Part shown: piece after piece, positions 1 to 57,958 of the stretch
Position numbering within the stretch: position 1 is the first letter of the stretch
How the letters are laid out: every line of letters begins with the position of its first letter
Assembly (NCBI RefSeq): GCF_007981265.1
Contig: NZ_CP034363.1
Span: 2,356,001-2,420,000 of the forward strand
Source: Pantoea sp. CCBC3-3-1
GTDB lineage: Bacteria; Pseudomonadota; Gammaproteobacteria; Enterobacterales; Enterobacteriaceae
Length of the DNA: 64,000 nucleotides
Direction: 5' to 3'
The notes under the pieces: model-generated
The model's input: only the letters and a program-made list of their open reading frames with translations
What the model was told of the DNA's origin: nothing
The model's database searches: none
Made by a program: the position numbers and the translations under genes

Positions 1-3000
1 CGGCATCGTCAGCGCCATCAGCGCCGTCCAGCAGGGCGGCGAGTTTCTCCACGCTGCGGGCGGTGATGATTTGGCCAATGCTGAGCGAGCGAGAGGCATT
101 ACGACGAAGTTCAGCGGCCAGCTGCATCGCCAGCAGCGAGTGGCCGCCTAAGGCAAAGAAATCATCGTCGGCAAACACCCGTTCACGGTTCAACAGGGCG
201 CAGAAGAGCCCGGCCAGCAGCTTTTCGCTGTCGCTCTGCGGCACGCGACCCGCAGCCCGGTCCAGCTGCGGTAACGGCAGGGCTTTACGATCGAGCTTGC
301 CGTTGGCGCTGAGCGGCAGGTGTTCAATCAGCATATAGCTCACCGGCTGCATATGCGCGGGGAGGATCGCCGCGAGCTGGGTTTTAACCGTTTCTGTATC
401 CAGCACAACGTTAGGTTCGGCCACCAGCCACGCCAGCAGCTGACGATTGTCCGCGCCGCTATGCTGCTGCGTCAGCGCCTTCGCGGCCACGATCGCCGTG
501 GCCACGCCCGACAGCGTTTGCAGCGCCTGTTCAATTTCACCGGGTTCAATACGCTGACCGCGAATTTTCAGCTGATCGTCGCTACGCCCTAAGTAGTCGA
601 CCGCGCCGTCTTCACGCCAGCTGGCAATATCGCCGGTGCGATACATGCGCTCGCCCTCGGCAAACGGTGAGGCGACGAAGCGTTGTGAAGTCAAATCCGC
701 GCGATACAGATAGCCTTCTGCCAGCTGCACGCCGCCGAGATAGAGATCGCCCGGCACGCCCACCGGCACCGGACGCAGCAGGCTGTCCAGTATATGCAGC
801 TGCGTGTTCCAGACCGGACGACCAATCGGCACGCCTGGTCCCGCGCAGCTCTCCAGCGCTTCGCCGCTGGCGGGTTGGTAAGTGACGTCCACGGCCGCTT
901 CGGTCGGCCCATAAAGATTGTGTAACGGTGCCGGGCACAACGCCTGCCAGCTGTAAGCCAGCTCGCAAGAGAGCGCTTCGCCGCTACAAAATACCCGCTT
1001 CAGGCTACTGAGCGTGCCATGTTGCCGTTGCAGATGACCCACAAAGGCCGACAGCATGGAAGGCACGAAGTGCAGCGTGGAAACCTGATAATCCGCGATC
1101 AGCTGTGCCAGTATCTCAGGATCGCGATGCGCGTCCGGCGGGGCCATCATCAGCTGTGCGCCCGTTATTAACGGCCAGAAGAATTCCCAAACCGAGACGT
1201 CAAAGCTGCACGGTGTTTTTTGCAGGATCACATCGTCGGCCTGTAGCGGATATTCATGCTGCATCCAGCGCAGGCGATTGACGATCGCCTGTTGCCCGAC
1301 CACCACGCCTTTCGGTTTGCCGGTTGAACCGGAGGTATAAAGCACATAAGCGGGGCGGTTTACGTTCGCAGAAGGCAACGCGTGCTGCGGGCGCGATACG
1401 GTGTCAAACCGGTCAAAGGTCAGCAACATGCCCAGCGATGAGAAACGTGATGCCAGCGACGATTCGGTAATAATTACCACCGGGCGAGCATCATCCACCA
1501 TCAGCGCAAGACGCTCATCGGGATAACCGGTATCCAGCGGCAGCCATGCGCCACCCGCCAGCAGAACGGCGGTCAGCGCCACGCTGAGGCGGGCGGAGCG
1601 AGGCAGCGCAACGGCCACAATATCGCCCGGGATCACACCGGCTTCGATCAGCCGATCGGCCAGCAGTTCGGCCTGACGCAGCATCTGACGATAGCTGAGC
1701 TGGCACTCCACGTCCCGCAATGCCAGCGCGTCCGGCGTCAGCGCCGCCTGGGTGCGAATCGCCTGTTGCAGCGTTTCAGCAGGCAACGCGAGCTGAGTAC
1801 GGTTGACGTCGGCTATCAGGGCCTGTTCAGCCGCCGTCTGCAGCTGCCATTGCGCCAGCGGTAAATCCGGCTGGCGAACCAGCTGCTCAAGCAGCAGCAG
1901 CAGGCGTTCTGCAAAGCGCCGCGGCTGAGTGACAGTGTCACGATACTCCATGATCAACGTCAGGCCATCGTGCGGCAGAACCAGCAGCGTGAGCGGATAA
2001 TGCGTGTAGCCACGGTTATGAATCGCTTCACAGCGAATGCCCGCCTCGCTTGTAAGCAGCGTCTGGTTATCAGGATAGTTTTCTACTACCAACAGCGTGT
2101 CGAATAGCGTCCCGCAACCGGCCAGCTGCTGAATGTCGGCTAATCCCAGGCAATCCTGCTCAATCAGCTGAATTTGCTGTTTCTGGTGATCGAAGAGCTG
2201 GTCAGGCAAGCTGCGTTCGGGCTGATAACGTATCCGCACCGGCAGCGTGTTGCTGAACAGGCCGACATGCTGATCCAGACCGTCAATTTGTCCAAAGCGA
2301 CCCGATACCGGCGAGCCGAATACCACATCGTTCTGACCGCTGGTGATGGCCAGCTGTAAGCCCCAAATGCCCTGCATCAGCGTATTCAGCGTCAGTCCCC
2401 GGCTGCGGCACAGCGCCAGCAAACCGCGTTCCAGTCCCGGCTCAAGCTTGAGACGGATTTCATGCACCTTACTGGCTGCCGCTTCCTCAAACAGCAGCGT
2501 CGGGCGCACATCCTGCAAACTCGCCTGCCACAGGGTGCGGGCCTGAGCAACCTCTCTGGCGCTCAGCTGCCGGACAATATCGGCATAGCTGTAGCTGTGC
2601 GCTTTCAGTGCCTGTTCGCCACGCCACAGCACGGTGAGCAGATCGCTGACGATCACCGGCGTTGACCAGCCGTCAACCACCAGATGATGCGCATTCAGCA
2701 ACAGCGTTGCCCGTTGACCATGGCGGATCAGCAGGGCGTGCAGCATCACCGGCTGGCGGAACAGATCGCGTTGCAGCGCCTGTTTTTCCCATTCGGTTAT
2801 GGCGGCAGCTTCTTCTGCTGCCGACATCTCAGGCAGCGTGATCTCCTCCAGCGGCCAGTGACTTTCATTATGCAACAGCGGCAGCAGCTGCATGGGCGGC
2901 AGGCAGAGGTCGCTGTCAAAGCGGGCGGCAAGCTGGGGATGATGGCGAACAACCGCATTTAGCGCAGCCTGAACGCTCGCCGTGGGTAACACACCGCTCA

Positions 3001-6000
3001 GCGTCAGGCTGGTGAGCGTGTTGTAACTGCCTTGCTGCGTCGTGGTTTGCGCATGGAACAGCAGTCCCTGCTGCAAGGGCAACAGCGGCAGCAGCGTGGT
3101 GAGCAAGCCATAACGTTTGGTGAGCTGTTGCAGCAGCGCGTCGTCTACCTGTTCAGGAATTTCAGCGGCAACCAGCGTATTTTGAGCCTGTTGCGGATGC
3201 TGGCGGGCGAAATGAATTAACGCATCAGCCGCCTCGCTCAGTGACTGATGTAGCGCGTCAATATCGGCTTCGCTGAAGATCTCTGCGGCCCAGCCCCAGT
3301 TCAACGCCAGGCGTTGTGCCTGCTCGTCGACAAAAATATTCAGCTCCAGCGCATGCAGCAGCGGCATGGTCTCTTCCTGCATGACGGCGAACGTATCACG
3401 GAACTGATTAGCCGTGCGCAACGGTGACCACTCATCGTCACTATGGCTGAAACGGCCAAGGTAATTAAACAGCACTTCCGGCGCATGTTGGCGGGCCATC
3501 TTCGCCAGCTGGCTACCCCGGTTCGCATCCAGCCAGCGCAGCTGCCCGTAACCCACGCCACGATCGGGAACCGCACGCAGGACTTGTTTAATGGCCCGCA
3601 CGCTGTCCGAACCGGGTGGGTTATCAGGGAGCGTGACCGCGACGGGATAAACGGTAGTCAGCCAGCCAAGCGTTCGCGACAGATCGAGCCACTCTTCCAG
3701 CTCGGCACGTCCGTGAGATTCCAGCGTAAAGCGGAACTGACTGGCGTTAAAACGCTGGCGTAACGCCAGAGAAAGCAGGGTGAGCAGCAGTTCTTCCGTC
3801 GTGGCGCGATACTGCTGCGGCAGCGATCCCAGCAGCGCCTGCGTTTGCGCCACGTTCAGCAGCGTGCGTTTTTGCCTGGCCTGGCGGCGGTTATCCTGTG
3901 CGGTTAAGGCTCGCAGGCCTAAACGCGGCACTTCATTTTGCAGCATTTGCTGCCAGAAGCCGAGTTCCGGAATGCGCTGGTCGAGCGTCGCCAGCAGATA
4001 AGCAGACCAGTCATGCAGCGAGGTTTCTTCACGTGACGGTGTCACATTATTCATGGCCGCGTCGCGCAACGCCTCCAGCAGCACACGCCAGGAAACCCCG
4101 TCTACCACGAGATGATGCACCGTCAGTACCAGCGCAACGCTTTGCTGATGCTGTTGCAATAATGCAGCCTGCATCATGATGCCCGCAGCCGGATCGATCC
4201 GCTGCGCATCGGTCAGAAAAGCTTGCTCCGCCGCGCTGTCGCGACTGGCATCGCCAATATCGGTGCTGTAACACCCGTTCACCGCTGTTGCCGTCTCGCC
4301 GACAATCAGTTGGCCTGCGCGCGTAAAGCTTCTTAACACCGGATGCGCCTCAGCCAGCAGATGCAGGGCGTTTTCCAGCTGTGCCTGAGTCAGTTGTGGC
4401 GGCACCGCCAGATAAACGCTGTGCACAAAGCGGGCATTGATGCCGGCCCACTCGTTAAACCAGTGCAGGATCGGTAGACCGCCGACAGCGCCTTGCTGCG
4501 CCACGCGAGGCGCGGCAACGTGCTGCGTTAGCGGCTGCATAATGTTGGCAATGCGGCCAATGCTGCGTTCGGCAAAGATATCGCGGGGGCGCAGCTGATA
4601 GCCGGCACGGCGGGCGGCGGTGCTCAGGCCCATGGCGGAAATACTGTCGCCGCCCAGCGCAAAGAAGTCGTCTTCCATAAAAACGTCATTGCAGCCTGAC
4701 AGCTCGCAGAATGCGCCAGCCAGCAGCAATTCTTTCTCGCTTTGCGCCACGCGACCTGCGCGCGGGGTCAACTGCGGCAGCGGCAACGCTTTACGATCCA
4801 GCTTGCCGTTGGCGCTGAGCGGCAGCTTATCGATCAGCAGATAGCTGACCGGCTGCATATGCGCCGGGAGCACCTCGTTCAGCTGGGCTTTAACCGTCCC
4901 GGTGTCCAGCGGGAAGCCCGGTTCGGCAATCAGCCAGGCCAGCAGCTGGCGGTTATCGGCCGCGCCGGTTTTCTGCGTCAGCGCCTTTGCGGCAACCACC
5001 GCCACGGCTACGCCAGGCAGTGCCTGTAGCGCCTGCTCAATTTCACCCGGTTCAATGCGCTGACCGCGAATTTTTAGCTGATCGTCGCTACGGCCGAGAT
5101 AGTCGACGCCGCCATCTTCATTCCAGCAGGCGATATCGCCGGTGCGGTACATGCGCTCGCCCTGACCAAACGGCGAAGCGACAAAGCGCTGTGCGGTCAG
5201 ATCGGCCCGATGCAGATAGCCTTCCGCCAGCTGCACGCCGCCAAGATAGAGATCGCCCGCCACGCCAACCGGCACCGGACGTAAGCGGTGATCAAGAATA
5301 TAGAGCTGGGTGTTCCAGACCGGGCGGCCAATCGGCACGCCTGAACTCTCGCACTGGGCCAGCGCTTCGCCGCTGGCTGGCTGGAAGGTGACGTCTACGG
5401 CCGCCTCGGTCGGGCCATAAAGGTTATGCAGCGGAGCCGCACAGAGCGCCTGCCAGCTGCGCGCCAGTTCACAGGAGAGCGCTTCGCCGCTACAGAAAAC
5501 GCGCTTAAGGGTGGGACACGCATTCGGTTGCTGAAGATGGCCGACAAACGCTGCCAGCATCGACGGCACAAAGTGCAGCGTGGTGATGCGATACTCGTCA
5601 ATCAGCTGCCAGAGGAGGTCCGGGTCGCGGTGTGCATCCGGCGGCGCCATCATCAGCTGTGCGCCGGTCATCAACGGCCAAAAAAATTCCCAAACCGAGA
5701 CGTCAAAACTGCACGGTGTTTTTTGCAGAATAACGTCGCTGGCATCGAGCGGATAGGCATCCTGCATCCAGCGCAGGCGGTTAACGATAGCCTGCTGACC
5801 GACCACCACGCCTTTGGGTTTGCCGGTTGAACCCGAGGTATAAAGTACGTAAGCCGGACGATCCACGTTGACGGGCGGCAGCGCGTGGCGCAGCGCCGTG
5901 TGTTCATCAGCCAGCCGATCAAAGGCCAGCAGCGTTCCCAGTGGCGTAAAGCGCGTCGCCAGCGCCGATTCAGTGATCACAACCACCGGGCGGGCATCCT

Positions 6001-7678
6001 CCACCATCAGCGCCAGACGCTCGTCGGGATAGCCGGTATCCAGCGGCAGCCAGGCAGCGCCGGCCAGCAAAATGGCGGTCAGCGTAATGCTTAAACGGAC
6101 CGAGCGAGGGAGGGCTACGGCAACGATATCGCCCGGGATCACGCCGGCTTCAATCAGCCGATCGGCCAGCAGTTCCGCCTGGCGCAGCATCTGGCGATAG
6201 CTCAGCTGGCAGTCGACATCCAGCAGCGCCAGCGCATCCGGCGTCAGGGCCGTTTGCGCGATAATGGCCTGTTGCAACGTCTCTTGCGGCAGCGTGACAG
6301 CGGTGTGGTTGGCCTGTTCGATCAGCTGCGCTTCCGCTGGCGTCAGCAGTGACAGCTCACCGCACGTTAGCTGCGGCTGTTGGGCCAGCTGGGTAAACAG
6401 CCAGCTGATGCGTTCACCATGGCGTTGCAAACTGCGGGCATCAAATCGCGCCGGATTGGCAACCAGGGTAATTTGCAGCTGGTTATGACGAAAGCCGACT
6501 TCGAATTCCAGATCGTCAACCGGCCCCATCGCCAGCGTATGCGTACGGGCCTCAATACCTGCCAGTTCCAGCGGCTGATGATAAACTTTCACGTTAATCA
6601 CCGGGCCGTACAGCTTGCTGCCGCTGCCGACCAGCCCCAGATCGCGACGCAGATCTTCCGCCTCATAGCGCTGAAAACGGCGTGCCTGCTTCACTTCCCG
6701 CTGGAGTTGTTGTACCAGCTCCGGCAGCGTAGTAGCCTCGCTAACATCGAAGATGAGTGGCAGCACATTGACCACCGGCCCGATGGCGCTGAGCGCGGCA
6801 GAACCCATACGGCGCATAAACGGGAAGCCCACCGACAGACGATGTCGGCCACTGATACGGGCTAAAAAGAGAATCAGCAGGGCGCTGGCAATATCGCCTT
6901 CAGTCACGTCTTTCAGCCCGGCATGCTGTTGCAGAGGAGCCAAAGCGTCACCGGAAAGATTGACCTGCTGTTTAATGGGCGCGGCGCTCGCGGCGGCACC
7001 CGCTTCACGCCGTGCGAGCGTCACTGCTTCCGGCAGTTCAGCCGTGTAGTGCTGCCAGTGGGCGGCTGCCCGCTGCTGCTGCGCGGAACCCTGCCACTGC
7101 TGATATTCCGTCACCACTTCGGCGAAAGAGGTAAACGGTGAAGCTGTTGGCTCCGCCTTGCGTTGCAAAAAAGTGTAAAGCGCCGCGATACGGCTGGTCA
7201 GCGCTTCAAAACTAAAACCATCCACCATCAGATGGTGGTAGCGTTGATACCAGAACCAGCAATCATCGCTGATACGCATCAGCACGTGGCGATAAAGCGG
7301 ACGATCGCCATCGGCAGGCAGTTCGGCCGCCAGATCTTCCTGCATCAGGCTCAGCGCCGCCTGTTTTGGGTTGGCACGCTGGCTCAGATCATACCACTCT
7401 GCTGCGATGACGCTGGCCGTTTCCGGGATCCACTGCATCGGCGTGCCGTCTTCCGCCAGACCAAAACGGGCATGGAGGGTATCCGCTTCTGCCAGAGCCA
7501 TACGAATCGCCCGATCCATCGAGGCGCGATTCAGATCGCCATGCAGTTCACTGTAGTGGGCGACGGCAAAGATGTTGCGGTGCCCGGCGATCTGGTCAGC
7601 CATCCAGATACCCGGCTGTGCGGCCACCAGAGGCAGGGCGAGAGAGGTTTGCGTCTCAGGCAAGATTAAATCGGTCAA
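1..7678 (-). CDS. Dimodular EntF-like non-ribosomal peptide synthetase (3' end outside window)
   Basis: About 2559 residues are visible and the reading frame stays open to the left edge. Rough domain order is C (1-440, HHLMVDG near 150), A (450-960), T (970-1045, LGGDSI), E (1055-1475, HHLVVDGVSW near 1190, later FNYLG), C (1485-1930, HHLVVDG near 1663), A (1945-2470), T (2480-2550, LGGHSL). A thioesterase should follow outside. The first C domain resembles that of EntF, which accepts dihydroxybenzoate from an aryl carrier protein. In both A domains the specificity positions read D-V-W-H-F-S-L-V-D, the serine code of EntF. Inference: a catechol siderophore synthetase assembling DHB-D-Ser-L-Ser units. 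Start: TTG preceded by AGGA; the nearby ATG at 7686 is in another frame and stops after three codons. The gene follows mbtH by 28 bases in the fes operon. Confidence 0.93.
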   Translation of the reverse strand, partial: MTDLILPETQTSLALPLVAAQPGIWMADQIAGHRNIFAVAHYSELHGDLNRASMDRAIRMALAEADTLHARFGLAEDGTPMQWIPETASVIAAEWYDLSQRANPKQAALSLMQEDLAAELPADGDRPLYRHVLMRISDDCWFWYQRYHHLMVDGFSFEALTSRIAALYTFLQRKAEPTASPFTSFAEVVTEYQQWQGSAQQQRAAAHWQHYTAELPEAVTLARREAGAAASAAPIKQQVNLSGDALAPLQQHAGLKDVTEGDIASALLILFLARISGRHRLSVGFPFMRRMGSAALSAIGPVVNVLPLIFDVSEATTLPELVQQLQREVKQARRFQRYEAEDLRRDLGLVGSGSKLYGPVINVKVYHQPLELAGIEARTHTLAMGPVDDLEFEVGFRHNQLQITLVANPARFDARSLQRHGERISWLFTQLAQQPQLTCGELSLLTPAEAQLIEQANHTAVTLPQETLQQAIIAQTALTPDALALLDVDCQLSYRQMLRQAELLADRLIEAGVIPGDIVAVALPRSVRLSITLTAILLAGAAWLPLDTGYPDERLALMVEDARPVVVITESALATRFTPLGTLLAFDRLADEHTALRHALPPVNVDRPAYVLYTSGSTGKPKGVVVGQQAIVNRLRWMQDAYPLDASDVILQKTPCSFDVSVWEFFWPLMTGAQLMMAPPDAHRDPDLLWQLIDEYRITTLHFVPSMLAAFVGHLQQPNACPTLKRVFCSGEALSCELARSWQALCAAPLHNLYGPTEAAVDVTFQPASGEALAQCESSGVPIGRPVWNTQLYILDHRLRPVPVGVAGDLYLGGVQLAEGYLHRADLTAQRFVASPFGQGERMYRTGDIACWNEDGGVDYLGRSDDQLKIRGQRIEPGEIEQALQALPGVAVAVVAAKALTQKTGAADNRQLLAWLIAEPGFPLDTGTVKAQLNEVLPAHMQPVSYLLIDKLPLSANGKLDRKALPLPQLTPRAGRVAQSEKELLLAGAFCELSGCNDVFMEDDFFALGGDSISAMGLSTAARRAGYQLRPRDIFAERSIGRIANIMQPLTQHVAAPRVAQQGAVGGLPILHWFNEWAGINARFVHSVYLAVPPQLTQAQLENALHLLAEAHPVLRSFTRAGQLIVGETATAVNGCYSTDIGDASRDSAAEQAFLTDAQRIDPAAGIMMQAALLQQHQQSVALVLTVHHLVVDGVSWRVLLEALRDAAMNNVTPSREETSLHDWSAYLLATLDQRIPELGFWQQMLQNEVPRLGLRALTAQDNRRQARQKRTLLNVAQTQALLGSLPQQYRATTEELLLTLLSLALRQRFNASQFRFTLESHGRAELEEWLDLSRTLGWLTTVYPVAVTLPDNPPGSDSVRAIKQVLRAVPDRGVGYGQLRWLDANRGSQLAKMARQHAPEVLFNYLGRFSHSDDEWSPLRTANQFRDTFAVMQEETMPLLHALELNIFVDEQAQRLALNWGWAAEIFSEADIDALHQSLSEAADALIHFARQHPQQAQNTLVAAEIPEQVDDALLQQLTKRYGLLTTLLPLLPLQQGLLFHAQTTTQQGSYNTLTSLTLSGVLPTASVQAALNAVVRHHPQLAARFDSDLCLPPMQLLPLLHNESHWPLEEITLPEMSAAEEAAAITEWEKQALQRDLFRQPVMLHALLIRHGQRATLLLNAHHLVVDGWSTPVIVSDLLTVLWRGEQALKAHSYSYADIVRQLSAREVAQARTLWQASLQDVRPTLLFEEAAASKVHEIRLKLEPGLERGLLALCRSRGLTLNTLMQGIWGLQLAITSGQNDVVFGSPVSGRFGQIDGLDQHVGLFSNTLPVRIRYQPERSLPDQLFDHQKQQIQLIEQDCLGLADIQQLAGCGTLFDTLLVVENYPDNQTLLTSEAGIRCEAIHNRGYTHYPLTLLVLPHDGLTLIMEYRDTVTQPRRFAERLLLLLEQLVRQPDLPLAQWQLQTAAEQALIADVNRTQLALPAETLQQAIRTQAALTPDALALRDVECQLSYRQMLRQAELLADRLIEAGVIPGDIVAVALPRSARLSVALTAVLLAGGAWLPLDTGYPDERLALMVDDARPVVIITESSLASRFSSLGMLLTFDRFDTVSRPQHALPSANVNRPAYVLYTSGSTGKPKGVVVGQQAIVNRLRWMQHEYPLQADDVILQKTPCSFDVSVWEFFWPLITGAQLMMAPPDAHRDPEILAQLIADYQVSTLHFVPSMLSAFVGHLQRQHGTLSSLKRVFCSGEALSCELAYSWQALCPAPLHNLYGPTEAAVDVTYQPASGEALESCAGPGVPIGRPVWNTQLHILDSLLRPVPVGVPGDLYLGGVQLAEGYLYRADLTSQRFVASPFAEGERMYRTGDIASWREDGAVDYLGRSDDQLKIRGQRIEPGEIEQALQTLSGVATAIVAAKALTQQHSGADNRQLLAWLVAEPNVVLDTETVKTQLAAILPAHMQPVSYMLIEHLPLSANGKLDRKALPLPQLDRAAGRVPQSDSEKLLAGLFCALLNRERVFADDDFFALGGHSLLAMQLAAELRRNASRSLSIGQIITARSVEKLAALLDGADGADDA
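240..1830 (-). repeat. Second copy of a duplicated A-domain segment inside the NRPS gene
   Basis: This part of the gene, coding the second adenylation domain, is closely similar at base level to about 4746-6330, with a shift of about 4.5 kb. Long stretches around the A3, A4, A5 and A8 motifs are nearly identical while the flanking C and E domains differ. This suggests duplication or gene conversion of the A domain. Edges are approximate. Confidence 0.8.
4746..6330 (-). repeat. First copy of the duplicated A-domain segment inside the NRPS gene
   Basis: Encodes the first adenylation domain and is the partner of about 240-1830. Both copies keep the same serine specificity residues, so the duplication has not been followed by a change of substrate. 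Edges are approximate. Confidence 0.8.
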
Positions 7679-7706: not shown

Positions 7707-7928
7707 TCAACGAACGGCAGAGGGCATTTCTGATGCTGCTGGCCGCATCTCCTGCCAGTGATTTTCGATGTAACGCGTGGCTTCCGTGCGCTCAAGCGGC
7801 CCGGCTATGCTTTTCCAGCCGGGCGGAACGGCAGCAAAAGCAGGCCAGAGACTGTATTGCTCGCGTGCGTTAATCAGCACGAGGAAGGTCAGCGTTTCAT
7901 CATCAAAAGGATTTTGTTGTTCAGTCAT
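7707..7928 (-). CDS. ybdZ: MbtH-like NRPS accessory protein (YbdZ family)
   Basis: 73 residues, the normal size of the family. The N-terminus NPFDDE, then VLIN, YSLWP and PGWKS are the family hallmarks. MbtH-like proteins bind NRPS adenylation domains and support their folding and activity; in E. coli YbdZ serves EntF. The ATG chosen overlaps the last 8 bases of fes, and the stop lies 28 bases before the NRPS start, so the three genes are one operon. The conserved N-terminus excludes the longer upstream reading. Confidence 0.93.
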   Translation of the reverse strand: MTEQQNPFDDETLTFLVLINAREQYSLWPAFAAVPPGWKSIAGPLERTEATRYIENHWQEMRPAASEMPSAVR

Positions 7929-9273
7929 GATCGATACCTGTAGAAGTAAGAAGTGCATCAGAAACCACAGAAGGGGGCAGAAAATCCGCCAGCAGCCAGC
8001 GGCAGCCTTCAATCAGGCCATCACGCCAGCAGCGGGCGTCGTGGCCGCCGGAATAGACCCGAAACTGCAAATGGTGTCCGGCAGCACGCAGCTCAGGCGC
8101 AATCTGCTGGTTAACAAATTCGATATTGCGTTCGCGGTTGCCCACTTCCTGAAAAATATGCAGCTGCCCGGCCGGTAAATTTCCGGCCTGAAGCTGCTGA
8201 AACAACAGCCCAGGCGGGTGCTGTTCTCGCCGGTCAAAAGCATGAATAAATTGCAGGTTGGGCCACCAGAAAGAGCCGGACTGGCTGAGGATGCGGCCAA
8301 AGCGAGCGGGGCGGTGCAGACCGGCATACAGCGCGGCCAGCCCGCCATAGCTTTGTCCGGCCACTAAAGTGCGATCGCCATCCTCACTGAAAGCCTGGTG
8401 CTGGCGGATTAACGGCATCAGCTCCTGCTCAATGGCCTGCCAGAACTGCGAATTGCAGGGAAGTTCCGCCTCGCGGTGCTGGCCGTTAATCGCATCAATA
8501 AATAACCAGCAGGCGGCAGGCAGATGACCCGCTTCGGTTTCCGCAGCCAGCGCGGAAAAAATCGGCTGGCCTTCCACCCAGTTTTGTCCGTCGAGCAAAA
8601 TGGCCAGCGGGCGCTGGTCAGGCCGGGAGGTATGTCCGCTGGTCCATAACCAGACACGACGCTGATTATTGAGTATTTCGCTCTGCCAGGTCAGTTGCAG
8701 CAGCGCATCTGGCGGCGTCGCTTCACCGCGATCCCACCCTTGCCATGCGGCGATCCACGGCGCTTTCGGCATGCGGGCGGCGCTTAACGGATGACGACGG
8801 CTGTTAAGAAAGGGCTGCTGATGATTAAGCGGATCGGCAACAGCCAGCGGCATCAGCGAAATCCACCAGGCTCTTTGCTGCAAACGCGCGGTCTCTGCAT
8901 CGCTGCTGAAAACTGGCGGCAGATGCTCCGCCGTAATGGGGATCAGGCTGTAGCTGCCGCGCCACCGGTCATCGATTACCGTTGACCAGTGCCAAACATT
9001 ACTGTTGCTTATGCGCTTTAGGCTGGTGGGCGTAGGGCTGTGATGATTTGTTACGCCGTTCACGTGCACATAGACGCGTTCAATAACGGAATTTTGTTCA
9101 TCGCCCTGCGGATCGCGCCAGAAGAAATGCATGTCAACGCGTCCTTCATCCACATATTCAACCAGCGGCGTGCCTGTTTCATGCAACCGTCGCCACCAGG
9201 TGTCTTCACCTAAATCGTTTTCTGACAACAGTTTAGATGCAGTTCCTGCGGGAAAATCTTGCCGTAACGTCAT
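7921..9273 (-). CDS. fes: Fes-type ferric catechol siderophore esterase
   Basis: 450 residues. Cytoplasmic esterase of the Fes family that hydrolyses the oligoserine backbone of ferric enterobactin-like siderophores to release iron. An N-terminal Fes domain (WWRDPQG, WRGSY, ADPLN) is followed by an alpha/beta hydrolase domain with the nucleophile elbow GQSYGG and a late GGHDARCW containing the probable catalytic His. The start at 9273 has GAGGG about nine bases upstream; an ATG at 9294 lacks a ribosome site. First gene of the fes-mbtH-NRPS operon, divergent from the receptor gene across a Fur-box-bearing spacer. Its presence implies an ester-linked (serine lactone) siderophore. Confidence 0.93.
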   Translation of the reverse strand: MTLRQDFPAGTASKLLSENDLGEDTWWRRLHETGTPLVEYVDEGRVDMHFFWRDPQGDEQNSVIERVYVHVNGVTNHHSPTPTSLKRISNSNVWHWSTVIDDRWRGSYSLIPITAEHLPPVFSSDAETARLQQRAWWISLMPLAVADPLNHQQPFLNSRRHPLSAARMPKAPWIAAWQGWDRGEATPPDALLQLTWQSEILNNQRRVWLWTSGHTSRPDQRPLAILLDGQNWVEGQPIFSALAAETEAGHLPAACWLFIDAINGQHREAELPCNSQFWQAIEQELMPLIRQHQAFSEDGDRTLVAGQSYGGLAALYAGLHRPARFGRILSQSGSFWWPNLQFIHAFDRREQHPPGLLFQQLQAGNLPAGQLHIFQEVGNRERNIEFVNQQIAPELRAAGHHLQFRVYSGGHDARCWRDGLIEGCRWLLADFLPPSVVSDALLTSTGIDHD

Positions 9274-9353
9274 ATCCCTTGCCCTCTGAAACATCTGGCG
9301 ACATTTTCAAACATTATTGCCAGACTCTTTACACTATCAAACGCAATGCAAAT

Positions 9354-9372
9354 GCTATTGATAACGATTTAC
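9354..9372. promoter_or_regulatory. Candidate Fur box between fes and the receptor gene
   Basis: The 19 bases here match 13 of 19 positions of the GATAATGATAATCATTATC Fur consensus, with a central TTGATAAC core. They sit inside a larger inverted repeat, GCAAATG...CATTTGC. Placed in the divergent spacer, it could give iron repression in both directions. Found by eye. Confidence 0.6.
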
Positions 9373-9512
9373 ATTTGCAATATGATTTTGACGTAAATTT
9401 TACTTACTGATTTCCGTACAGTTTCTGGGGAAACCGCAACCCCCGGTGGGCGTTAACACGCCTGTGCTGTGCAGGCGTCCGCGGATTTTTAATGACAAGG
9501 TAGTTTGAAGAG

Positions 9513-11720
9513 ATGGCATTCATGGCTGGTAAATTAGAAAATTCAGTGACCTCTGCAATGACGATCCCTTTTAAAAAATCCAGATTACATCTGGCGTTAA
9601 CACCGCTTTTTCTGCTGACGACGTTTTCGGGTACGGCCTTTGCCGAAGAGACCATGACCGTCAGTGCGGATACCCGCGAAAGCGTCACTGCCCCCATGCC
9701 GGGACTGGTGGCGAAAGAGAGTGCTTCCGGGACGAAAACCGCCACGCCGCTGCGCAAAACACCGCAGTCCATTTCGGTGGTGACGCGTCAGCAGATGGAC
9801 GATCAGGCTGCGGCTTCCGTTGCCGATGCGCTGAACTACTCCAGCGGCATCGTCACCAACTATCGCGGTAACTCTAATCGTAACGACGAGATCATCAGCC
9901 GCGGTTTTCGCTATGCGCCCAAGGTGCTGGACGGCCTGACTTATGGCCTGTCGGCCCGCAGCGGCGGGGGGGCCGGGCAAATTGACCCGTGGCTGCTGGA
10001 GCGCATTGAGATGATCCACGGTCCGGCCTCCGTACTGTACGGGCAGGTCAGCCCCGGCGGACTGGTCAGCATGACCAGCAAGCGGCCCACCGCGCAGAGT
10101 ATCCATAAAATTCAGCTCAGTACCGGCAACAAACACTACGGCGAAGCGGCGTTCGATTTTGGCGGTAAGCTGAACGATGACAACACGCTGTTTTATCGTC
10201 TGAACGGCGTTGGCAGCACCAGACATGAGTTTGTAAGAGGCGAAAAGCAGCAACGCGTGGCGATTGCGCCGGCCATCACCTGGCTACCGAACGCCGACAC
10301 CAGCTTTACCTTACTGACCAGTTACCAGAACGAACCCAAAGCGGGCTACCGTAACTTTCTGCCAGCCAGCGGCACGCTGCTGAGTACCAGCGCCGGCTAT
10401 TTGCCGTACGATTTTAACGTCAGCGAACCGAGCTTTAACCAGTCGAAACGTGAGCAGACGTCCGTTGGCTATAGTGTCGAACACACCTTTAACGAGGTGT
10501 TCAGCTTCCAGCAGAACCTGCGCTACAGCAATATCGATGAGTCGTACAAATACGTTGTCTTTACCACGGCGAATACCCGTAACAACGACCACACTATCAA
10601 TCGTCGCCCGCAGCATGACAAAGTGGAAACCGAAGAGTTGGGCCTGGATAACCAGCTGAAGGCGTTATTCAGCACCGGGCAGGTCGAACATACCCTGGTG
10701 GGCGGTCTGGATTACAAGTGGAGCGATATCGACAGCAGGCTGTGGCGGGACAATAACACCAGCCGCTATACCCTCGACTGGACAAATCCGACGCGCGTCA
10801 GCGTGAACGAAAGCGCCTTCACGCTTACTACCAGCACCCGCACTAAACTGGATCAGGTTGGCGTCTATCTTCAGGATCAGCTGGAATGGAACAACTGGAA
10901 CCTGCTGCTTTCGGGGCGTAACGACTGGACCGAAGTGCGCACGCAGGATGCCGTAGCGGATACCGATACCCAGCAGAATGACAACAAGATGACAGGGCGC
11001 GCTGGACTGCTGTATGCCTTTGATAACGGCCTGTCGCCTTATGTCAGTTACAGCACCTCGTTTGAACCGAACCTGAACACCGGCGCGCCGGGTGCCGATC
11101 CGTTTAAACCGACGACCGGCGAGCAATATGAAGCCGGGATCAAATTCCAGCCGGTGGGTTCGGACACGGTGATGACGCTCTCGGCGTTTCATATTAATCA
11201 GAAGAACATCAGCTCTTATAACAGCGTTACCGGCTATAACGAGCAGATTGGTAAAGTGCGCTCGAAAGGGGTGGAAACCGAGATCCATTCACAGATCACG
11301 CCAGAAATTGCGGTGATTGCGGCTTATACCTATACCGATTCGGTCACTAAAGCCAGCAACATTGCGGGCCAGACCGGCAACACGCCGCCAAATATTCCCC
11401 GCCATGCGGCGTCGGGCTGGGGAAGCTACAGTTTCCTGAACGGCGCATTGCAGGGACTGACGTTGGGCAGCGGCGTGCGCTATACCGGCACGGCAGCGGG
11501 CGACTACGTTGGCCAGCTTCGCGTACCGCATTACACGCTGTATGACGTCATGGCGAAATACGAGCTGGATCAGGCCATTCCCGCTTTGCGCGGCACAACC
11601 GTTCAGCTGAACGTTAACAACCTCGAAGATAAGCATTATGTCGCTTCGTGTAGTAATACCTCTGCCTGCTTCTATGGCAGCGGCAGAACGATTGTGGGTT
11701 CGGTGAGTTATAGCTGGTAG
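9513..11720 (+). CDS. TonB-dependent siderophore receptor (FhuA/FoxA/Fct-like family)
   Basis: 735 residues. Outer-membrane receptor: signal peptide ending near AFAEE (about residues 43-46), plug domain ([16 protein letters not shown], later [15 protein letters not shown]) and a 22-strand type beta barrel ending in a C-terminal aromatic residue (SYSW). Its plug resembles hydroxamate and chrysobactin receptors more than FepA/IroN. Because it diverges from fes-mbtH-NRPS and shares the candidate Fur box, it is inferred to import the ferric form of the locus's own product. The first ATG is used; an in-frame ATG at 9558 would give a more ordinary signal peptide but has no clear ribosome site. Confidence 0.9.
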
Positions 11721-55750: not shown

Positions 55751-57958
55751 TCAGAAGTGATAGCTGGCGGTCAGTGAGAAGTTACGCGGTTCGCCGTAGA
55801 CGATATAGTTACCGACGTTGGTGTCGTATTCTTTATCAAACAGGTTGTTCAGGTTGGCCTGCAATGTGAGCTGTTTGGTCAGCTGGTAACGGCCAAACAG
55901 GTTCACCAGTGCATAGCTGCCCTGCTCTGCATGCCAGGTGCCGTTGCCTTCCGGTGCATCAACATCATCCCAGACGTGCGTCTGCCAGTTAACGCCGCCG
56001 CCAACGGTCAGTGCCTGCAACATTGGCAGACGATAGCTGGTAAACATTTTCAGCTGGGTACGCGGTAAGGTTGGGTTCACCGCTGTGCCATCGCGCTCTT
56101 CTGCAATATAGCGCGTGCCGCCGACGGTCATCTGCCAGTTATCGGTTATCGCGCCATTCACTTCAAACTCAACGCCACGGCTTACGGTACCTGATTTACC
56201 GACGTAAGCGGTATCGTTAGAGCCTGCGATAGTTTGGTTGGTGCTTTGCGCCACGTTATCCAGTTCTGAGCGGAAAACGGTCAGTGAGGTGGTCAGGCGG
56301 CTGTTAAACCAGTCTGATTTCAGGCCCGCTTCGTAGTTTTTGCCCACCACCGGTGCCAGGTAGCTGCCGTTGATATCACGATAGGATTGCGGCTGGAACA
56401 CAGAGGTATAACTGCCGTAGGCGGACCAGTTTTCGTCGATGTCATAGATCAGGCCAGCGTAGGGCGTAATGTTATTTTTTTCGACGTTTTCAGTCAGCGT
56501 GTTGGTGCTCCAGCGCGTATAGCGCGCGCCGAGGATCAGGTGCAGCGGATCGGCCAGTGAAATACGGGTAGCGACGTAGGCGGATTTCTGGCGCGTGGTG
56601 TCATCCTGCGACAGCGATCGTTCGCCCCAGTCAGTTTCTGGATACTGGCTGTTGTAGCTGTTGAAGTCGCCCAGCGATTCGGAAGAGATATTATCAAAGG
56701 CGCTGTAGTAGGTATTTTCCTGCTTGCTGTAGCTCACGCCCGCCATCAGTTCATGCTGACGACCAAACAGTTGATAAGGGCCGCTGGCAAACGTATCGAC
56801 AGAATTTATTTTACGTTTGCCGGTGTTGTAGCCCGTGCCGCCAACGACCGGGTAATCAGCATAAGAGGAAACGCCGGCGCCGGTGTTTTTATCGAAGAAA
56901 CCGTTGATATAGAGCTGTCGGCTGTCGAGATAGGTTTCGTTATGGGTGCCGTTCAGGGTTAGCTGCCAGCCGTTATCAAAGCTCTGCTTCAGCGTCACGA
57001 ACGCTTTTTTACTCTCTTTGTCGTTATAGGCCCAGTCAGGCGCGGTATTAAATCCGCGACGGTAATGGGTCAGGCTGCCGTCGGTATACCAGCGCGGCGC
57101 CCCGCCCCAGGTTGGACTGTCGGCATTCACTTCCTGATATTCGTAGCCCACTGAAAGTAAAGTAGAATCCGTCAGGTCGGCATCGACCACGCCATAAATA
57201 AATTTCTTCTCGGCGCTGTAGCGCTCCACGAAGCTGTCGTTATCCTGATAACCGGCAACCAGGCGACCGCGAACGTTGCCCGACTCACTCAGCGGCGCAG
57301 ACAAATCAGCGACATAGCGCTGTTTGTTCCAGCTACCGTAAGTCGCGGAAACGTCGCCGGTGAATTCTTTGCTGTCGGCATGCTTGCGCACCATATTAAC
57401 CGCGGCGGAAGGATTCCCCGCGCCGGTCATCAGGCCGGTTGCGCCGCGCACCACCTCAACACGCTCATATAGCGCCGTATCGGTCTGGGAATCGCCCAGG
57501 TTCCAGCGCCCTTCAAAGACGGTTGGAATGCCATCGACCATATAGTTGTCGATTAAAAAACCGCGCGAGTAATACGTTTTGCGGTCCATATCCGCACCAG
57601 AAACGCTTTCCTGAATCGCGGTGGTGTTATTCAGTACCTGCCCCAGAGACTGAAGCTGCTGATCCTGCATGCGCTGCTTGCTGATAATACTGACCGATTG
57701 AGGAATATCACGCGCCGTCAGAGACATTTTGGTGCCGGCGTTAGTGACCGGCACGCTGTAATCGGTAGCGGCAGTGTCGCTGGCACTATTGGCCGTGGCG
57801 TCTACCGTCAGGGTCTGCTGTTCTTTTGTCACTTCTGCCGCTGAGGCGTGCGGCATTTGAATAGCGACAGCGACCAGCGCAGCGACGACGGAATAAGGCG
57901 TGCCGGTTTTGAGGCTACAACAGCTACTTTCCCTGATACGGTTTAAGTCAAAAAACAT
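55751..57958 (-). CDS. fhuE: FhuE-like TonB-dependent ferric hydroxamate (coprogen/rhodotorulate) receptor
   Basis: 735 residues, close to E. coli FhuE (729). Signal peptide of about 40 residues ending ASAAE, plug domain (RDIPQSVSIISKQRMQDQ; YERVEVVRGATGLMTGAGNPSAAVNMVRKHA) and beta barrel ending in SYHF. The VNMVRKH plug and GAGNPSA motif are typical of the FhuE/FpvA branch. Ribosome site AGGAAAT before the ATG. A candidate Fur box lies 170 bases upstream. Confidence 0.92.
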   Translation of the reverse strand: MFFDLNRIRESSCCSLKTGTPYSVVAALVAVAIQMPHASAAEVTKEQQTLTVDATANSASDTAATDYSVPVTNAGTKMSLTARDIPQSVSIISKQRMQDQQLQSLGQVLNNTTAIQESVSGADMDRKTYYSRGFLIDNYMVDGIPTVFEGRWNLGDSQTDTALYERVEVVRGATGLMTGAGNPSAAVNMVRKHADSKEFTGDVSATYGSWNKQRYVADLSAPLSESGNVRGRLVAGYQDNDSFVERYSAEKKFIYGVVDADLTDSTLLSVGYEYQEVNADSPTWGGAPRWYTDGSLTHYRRGFNTAPDWAYNDKESKKAFVTLKQSFDNGWQLTLNGTHNETYLDSRQLYINGFFDKNTGAGVSSYADYPVVGGTGYNTGKRKINSVDTFASGPYQLFGRQHELMAGVSYSKQENTYYSAFDNISSESLGDFNSYNSQYPETDWGERSLSQDDTTRQKSAYVATRISLADPLHLILGARYTRWSTNTLTENVEKNNITPYAGLIYDIDENWSAYGSYTSVFQPQSYRDINGSYLAPVVGKNYEAGLKSDWFNSRLTTSLTVFRSELDNVAQSTNQTIAGSNDTAYVGKSGTVSRGVEFEVNGAITDNWQMTVGGTRYIAEERDGTAVNPTLPRTQLKMFTSYRLPMLQALTVGGGVNWQTHVWDDVDAPEGNGTWHAEQGSYALVNLFGRYQLTKQLTLQANLNNLFDKEYDTNVGNYIVYGEPRNFSLTASYHF

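Follow-up and report, generated by a model that had tools for sequence, protein, structure and literature searches.

A chrysobactin-type synthetase of Pantoea with an apparently replaced adenylation domain and a predicted DHB-D-Ser-L-Ser product

Introduction

The synthetases closest to the one described here are those that make chrysobactin-type catechol siderophores. CbsF of Dickeya, whose products are chrysobactin and cyclic trichrysobactin, has the order C-A-T-E-C-A-T-TE with an epimerisation (E) domain, and in CbsF and its Lys-type homologues module 2 supplies Ser and the chain carries a DHB cap (product facts from the parts of PMC8480324 covered). The same DHB-amino acid-Ser triscatechol plan underlies frederiksenibactin (made by FreF), turnerbactin (TnbF) and trivanchrobactin, again with a basic spacer, and X of DHB-X-Ser is basic in all four compounds, chrysobactin included; unlike CbsF, FreF and TnbF have no E domain according to the parts of these sources covered (PMC8480324, PMC3795760). 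The stereochemistry of Lys sets the handedness of the iron complex, with D-Lys giving Lambda and L-Lys giving Delta complexes (PMC8480324, in part). In the covered part of the turnerbactin report, the second condensation domain (C2) falls in the D-accepting group, yet the chemistry indicates an L residue (PMC3795760).

Here we follow up a sequence-only reading of a locus in Pantoea sp. CCBC3-3-1, which proposed that an NRPS at one end of the window (the whole 64,000-nucleotide stretch of DNA analysed) builds a DHB-D-Ser-L-Ser siderophore. Judged from its sequence, this NRPS is a chrysobactin-type (CbsF-like) synthetase in which the adenylation (A) domain of module 1 has been replaced by a copy of the enzyme's own module-2 Ser domain. 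We consider it likely that the account as a whole holds, that is, a replacement origin together with a Ser-Ser pathway to oligo-(DHB-D-Ser-L-Ser).

Results

Architecture of the synthetase

The NRPS frame starts with a TTG at 7678 on the minus strand and continues 734 bases beyond the left edge of the window. With the adjoining genome sequence added, the full gene spans contig C1:2355267-2363678 and encodes 2803 residues in an intact frame. Pfam finds three condensation-type, two AMP-binding, two PP-binding and one thioesterase (TE) stretches, which the motifs order as C1-A1-T1-E-C2-A2-T2-TE. The C-A-T-E-C-A-T order first read from the window is therefore confirmed on the complete protein, and the TE that was to be sought left of the window is indeed present at the end of the gene (Pfam; motif GYSLGG). 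This is not the single C-A-T-TE module of the EntF type, since there are two modules and an E domain. The features of the gene are as follows.

1..7678, minus strand: dimodular NRPS, residues 1-2559 of 2803 (open reading frame and Pfam)
C1:2355267-2356000, minus strand, left of the window: remainder of the NRPS, including the thioesterase (genome sequence and Pfam)
6320..7636, minus strand: C1, EntF-like starter condensation domain (Pfam PF00668, residues 15-453; alignment to EntF 5ja1)
4699..6283, minus strand: A1, Ser-coding adenylation domain, the transplanted copy (blastn self-match, code, tree, breakpoints)
4544..4726, minus strand, approximate limits: T1, carrier domain of the E-associated type, GGDSI (motif; collinear with congeners)
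3179..4501, minus strand, approximate limits: E, epimerisation domain with intact motifs (motifs; congener and structure alignments)
1778..3178, minus strand, approximate limits: C2, condensation domain (motif, Pfam, congener comparison)
193..1777, minus strand: A2, Ser-coding adenylation domain, source of the A1 copy (self-match, code, tree)
29..217, minus strand: T2, carrier domain, GGHSL (Pfam PF00550, residues 2488-2550)

The HHxxxDG motif is intact in C1, E and C2. Alignment of residues 13-997 with EntF of known structure (5ja1), together with the PF00668 match, bears out the description of the first condensation domain as EntF-like. We take the hallmarks of an epimerisation domain to be HHxxxDG and the Glu of an EGHGRE-type motif, and the E domain has both (HHLVVDG and LESHGRAE). 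It also retains RTLGWLT, PDRGVGYG and FNYLGR in an alignment with solved E domains, in agreement with its having been called intact.

Adenylation codes

Both A1 and A2 read DVWHFSLVD at nine code positions, as does the genome's own EntF; the positions were set by EntF-like anchor motifs rather than by a structure-based predictor, and the tenth letter, K, is assumed. The string DVWHFSLVDK is the code printed for the domain of enterobactin synthetase that activates Ser (PMC3795760, in part). The EntF serine code attributed to both A domains was thus recovered, and module 1 is predicted from its code to take Ser, not Lys, Arg or Orn.

The genus set comprised 37 genomes including the window's own, and a dimodular NRPS could be read through A1 in 8 of the 36 congeners, complete in seven and ending early in one (G003). 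A ninth (G030) has a dimodular NRPS cut by a contig end, and G015 was matched only by other NRPS at 28-30%. By the same anchors A1 reads D-WDMGYID in 8/8 congeners and A2 carries the Ser code in 8/8; printed out for two of them, A1 contains FDSSWE...NYYGPSEYTID. By descent we take this A1 for the Lys-type domain of chrysobactin synthetases, presumably selecting Lys. In the early-ending case (L045, G003:C18) the frame has 2390 aa with no T2-TE match and may be broken or interrupted; that assembly is listed at 10% contamination.

Origin of the module-1 adenylation domain

The A1 domain of the window is 81% identical to its own A2, 70-76% to congener A2 domains and 36-38% to congener A1 domains (8/8). 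The remaining domains are collinear with those of the congeners (C1 54-59%, T1-E 57-61%, C2 64-67% and T2-TE 64-68%, the last in 7/8), and the scaffold of C1, T-E, C2 and T-TE shares descent with CbsF-type synthetases (54-68% to the eight congeners). Self-comparison by blastn gives one in-frame 1.6-kb block of 79.4% DNA identity, pairing gene nt 1396-2980 with the A2 block. Sliding identity shows two switches, one in the C-A linker (around residue 450-465) and the other at FFALGG within T1 (around gene base 3030; window ~4649), so that T1 keeps its E-associated part. Lys is the presumed original module-1 substrate.

A maximum-likelihood tree of 43 A domains (from the window, six of the eight congeners, the genome's EntF and 14 of 23 dimodular proteins described below) is in keeping with this picture. 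The A1 and A2 domains of the window and of one such protein, P0002, form a single clade (100/99) inside the A2 side, and the other A1 domains, 19 of 19, group on the opposite side (100/100). The clade adjoins nine A2 domains, of which the named ones come from three Pantoea and one Enterobacter ludwigii; the A2 side also includes the EntF A domain, on a long branch. The tree is most simply explained by a single duplication in the ancestor shared by the window gene and P0002. Between A1 and A2, dN/dS is 0.16 (dN 0.12, dS 0.77; 527 codons), and the A1 branches (stem 0.076, tips 0.054 and 0.038) are about equal to or below those of A2 (0.091, tips 0.076 and 0.037). These values fit continued selection on A1.

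Two other origins were considered and rejected. The genome's own EntF is excluded as donor by its lower identity to A1 (59%, versus 81% for A2) and by the tree. An assembly artefact is excluded because the A1 and A2 copies differ at ~20% of bases and P0002 has the same layout.

Distribution and relatives

A protein search with the A1-T-E region returned 2919 matches, and 23 of the best 120 have 2600-2950 residues. Among these 23 listed dimodular proteins the A1 code is D-WDMGYIDK (K assumed) in 21 and the Ser code in two, P0001 and P0002. P0001 is the cluster of the window's own protein and has three members; P0002 is 91% identical to it, with 89-96% identity to the window protein in every domain (T1-E 90%). 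Among the matches listed from 392 family and 394 order genomes, no full-length match to the A1-T-E junction was found outside the window's own genome, in two overlapping searches that scored at most three candidates per genome. Compared with 12 Pantoea/Enterobacter-type proteins (four named Pantoea, one Enterobacter ludwigii), the scaffold is 59-76% identical, and C1 (61-64%) and T2-TE (73-76%) lie above the congener values.

Homologous synthetases are carried on large plasmids: those of Pantoea species and Erwinia aphidicola are 58-61% identical and one of Serratia grimesii 54%, over 99-100% of the protein. This distribution suggests that the locus moves between genera, and its horizontal arrival in this genome is likely. 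Among the best 80 of 542 relatives from a two-peptide-pattern scan, only those of Brenneria alni (L069; 57%) and Xenorhabdus bovienii (L070; 54%) exceed 50% identity, and both have an A1 of the FDSSWE type; in these two species the collinear dimodular NRPS lies beside entC, entE and an EntS-like MFS gene in a compact layout. DNA similarity to E. coli genomes (best 5 of 164) is confined to entF, at 72% over 11% of the query.

Judged by A2, the closest relative is G274 from another genus, which combines an A1 of the FDSSWE type with an EntF, so the change to Ser should not be read as forced by the presence of EntF. In that genome the FDSSWE-type dimodular synthetase coexists, without a Ser swap, with an ent cluster that includes EntF and FecCD/ABC genes (L211, L212). 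Congener G021 has entCEBA, with no EntF within 20 kb around EntE. Elsewhere, predicted chrysobactin, achromobactin and enterobactin clusters are described for E. sorbitola (PMC9978198, in part), and chrysobactin-like synthetases for Serratia marcescens, with no Ser-Ser product in the parts of these papers covered (PMC4117218, PMC6498229).

DHB supply

An ent cluster lies at contig C1:3.126-3.138 Mb, ~0.77 Mb from the NRPS. We read its frames as entC, entE, entB, entA, an EntF-like protein (1310 aa), an MFS transporter and a second Fes-like gene; the names are our own reading of the frames, and the MFS assignment is by Pfam. At E <= 1e-60, EntE is matched once in the genome. Isochorismatase has six matches, the one beside EntE being a 299-aa frame and the longest of the six, and the chorismate-binding family has three, one of them beside EntE. 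Searching elsewhere for entCEBA, as had been advised, thus located an operon with a separate EntF alongside. The DHB pathway on which the original proposal depended is present, though not adjacent to the NRPS, and both synthetases would have to share DHB from this cluster.

Neighbouring genes and transport

The genes next to the NRPS within the window are listed here.

7707..7928, minus strand: MbtH-like protein, 73 aa (Pfam PF03621; sequence reading)
7921..9294, minus strand: Fes-like ferric-catechol esterase, 457 aa (Pfam Enterochelin_N and Esterase)
9359..9373, plus strand: weak Fur-box-like site between fes and the receptor gene, three mismatches to TGATAATNATTATCA
9513..11720, plus strand: TonB-dependent receptor, 735 aa, divergently transcribed (Pfam)

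The receptor is 64-68% identical to four listed receptors recorded as ferrichrysobactin receptor, and 74-77% to most listed Pantoea receptors. With the 15-base Fur consensus the window holds four such sites against 1.6 expected, a number reached in 5 of 100 shuffles, and the 19-base consensus gave no match; the site at 9359..9373 is suggestive at most. The neighbouring fes had been cited in support of an ester-linked backbone. It is compatible with one, but a Fes-like gene also adjoins the Lys-type synthetase in 7/7 congener loci run and is not specific to the product.

An EntS-like MFS gene (50-52%) stands near the NRPS in 7/7 congener loci run, and the two loci checked for importers (L041, L046) have two FecCD permeases and an ABC ATPase. 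Neither the MFS nor the FecCD/ABC genes were found in the 19 kb left of the NRPS or in the window, where the only match to these transport genes is an ABC ATPase at 29%. The L041 FecCD protein has matches in 14/37 genomes, namely all nine dimodular carriers and five others, and none anywhere in the window's genome. That genome has six FecCD-family matches, which look like FhuB (two halves, fused), BtuC, a heme importer, one more single permease and, weakly, a zinc-type permease; no FepD/FepG-like permease pair was recognised genome-wide, despite two catechol synthetases and two Fes-like genes. Given the absence of exporter and FecCD/ABC genes at the locus, this could be a reduced system.

Two further observations concern the surroundings. 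The left neighbour of the NRPS (L011 17970-18995) encodes 341 aa with a DUF3472 and a StcE-type beta-sandwich domain. The window also contains a second TonB-dependent receptor at 55751-57958 (Plug match at C1:2413407-2413715), 27-28% identical to the NRPS-adjoining receptor over 153-258 residues.

Discussion

Our analysis upholds the Ser-Ser prediction, and the sequence points to an altered chrysobactin-type synthetase rather than to a new kind of system. With CbsF and the homologues examined it shares the domain order, the E domain, the module-2 Ser, a predicted DHB cap and the adjoining Fes and TonB receptor genes; it differs in that module 1 reads Ser instead of the Lys-type code, and in that DHB genes, exporter and FecCD importer are away from the locus or were not found. 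With EntF it has in common the starter condensation domain, the Ser code, the TE, the DHB supply and a probable ester oligomer, whereas its two modules and E domain lead to a predicted unit with an extra D-Ser.

In the pathway that we propose, DHB made by the distant entCEBA would be loaded on EntB and passed to C1, and A1, to go by its code, would load L-Ser on T1. The E domain, its motifs being intact, would convert DHB-L-Ser to DHB-D-Ser, which C2 would join to the L-Ser supplied by A2 on T2. The TE would then release the product, most probably once units have been joined through esters into a linear or cyclic trimer, (DHB-D-Ser-L-Ser)n; the adjoining TonB receptor would import the iron complex and the Fes-like esterase would open it. 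The predicted product is accordingly oligo-(DHB-D-Ser-L-Ser), probably an ester-linked trimer as in trichrysobactin, from which the suggested oligomer size is borrowed. The computed [M+H]+ values are 329.098 for the monomer, 639.178 for the linear dimer, 949.258 for the linear trimer and 931.248 for the cyclic trimer.

As the genome also has an EntF, selection for a second product is only a possibility. It is conceivable, although we think it unlikely, that the locus is a relic or near-silent, with a synthetase that is intact in sequence but yields little or no product in a cell relying on EntF enterobactin. The exporter and FecCD/ABC genes present at congener loci are missing here, the congeners' FecCD protein has no match in the genome, and the EntF cluster is at hand. 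Such decay is hard to square with an unbroken 2803-aa frame, an A1/A2 dN/dS of 0.16, 89-96% identity to P0002 across the domains and the retention of receptor, Fes and MbtH; moreover, the MFS of the ent cluster could export both products.

The middle residue is predicted to be Ser rather than a basic amino acid from the module-1 code, and D-Ser, as originally proposed, from the intact E-domain motifs. That it is D-Ser is less certain than that it is Ser, because the C2 grouping and the chemistry of turnerbactin disagree. An E domain that evolved on another residue and now faces an exchanged substrate might be inactive on the Ser intermediate, with C2 taking the L form to give DHB-L-Ser-L-Ser. 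The turnerbactin precedent lends this some colour, with the proviso that TnbF has no E domain in the portion of the report covered (PMC3795760). Against it stand the intact E motifs, a T1-E region 90% identical to that of P0002 and a T1 of the E-associated GGDSI type, and we give DHB-L-Ser-L-Ser only a slender chance. Still less plausible is module skipping, which would make the enzyme a second enterobactin synthetase releasing enterobactin or DHB-Ser: C1, A2, T2 and TE do resemble EntF, but both modules and the E domain are intact and the genome has a separate EntF. Drift of A1 towards another small residue (Thr, Ala or Dap) despite its Ser code is very improbable, for although about 18% of positions separate A1 from A2, the nine code positions are the same as in A2 and the genome's EntF, the tenth, Lys, being assumed.

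We return, then, to the D-Ser-L-Ser product. The remark that such an oligomer was not recognised among described siderophores agrees with our searches, which found no DHB-D-Ser-L-Ser siderophore, nor strings such as DHB-Ser-Ser, in a mostly open-access literature. The covered parts of three reports describe enterobactin-type, cepaciachelin and cyclic trichrysobactin products, with no DHB-Ser-Ser (PMC12971057, PMC10188961, PMC13251462). The only D-Ser-L-Ser siderophore in the literature searched is anachelin of Anabaena cylindrica, likewise a catecholate with D-Ser-L-Ser in its peptide; in the parts of the sources covered it differs in having a salicylate/polyketide start, an L-Thr-D-Ser-L-Ser tripeptide and an alkaloid catechol, has no DHB cap and is not described as an oligoester (PMC6562677, PMC4247773).

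We see an even chance that the compound represents a new DHB-X-Ser subclass, with a neutral D-Ser spacer and a free hydroxyl per unit, made beside enterobactin from one DHB pool. Neutral spacers (Gly, Ala), like the one predicted here, are known from the DHB triscatechols bacillibactin and paenibactin, but in these the ester is carried by Thr, not Ser, and no D-Ser spacer is known. If the prediction is true, the free hydroxyl on each unit could be a second esterification or branching site. We speculate, by analogy with the Lys compounds, that a D-Ser spacer may give an iron complex of the opposite handedness to one with an L spacer. A neutral D-Ser would also help to separate charge from chirality in iron binding and receptor choice.

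The wollamide/desotamide exchange (PMC9205934) and a pyoverdine case (PMC11366639) resemble the present one in that specificity was altered by A-domain recombination within one genome or cluster. According to the parts covered, the exchanged piece lay inside the A domain in wollamide and the exchange limits were undefined in the pyoverdine case, whereas here the exchange took in the entire A domain, starting in the C-A linker and ending inside the T domain, with limits that can be placed. The locus offers a clean natural whole-A-domain replacement, retained in a second protein cluster, and the splice points used by evolution (the C-A linker and the carrier-domain FFALGG) are relevant to NRPS engineering. 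It also seems that E and C2, which lie downstream, accommodated the changed module-1 residue.

Finally, the genome carries a large NRPS locus outside the window, at C1:2162277-2197887, whose open frames of 2118 to 3907 aa contain 13/17 of the genome's condensation-type matches; frames of 3013 and 3923 aa occur in congener G015.
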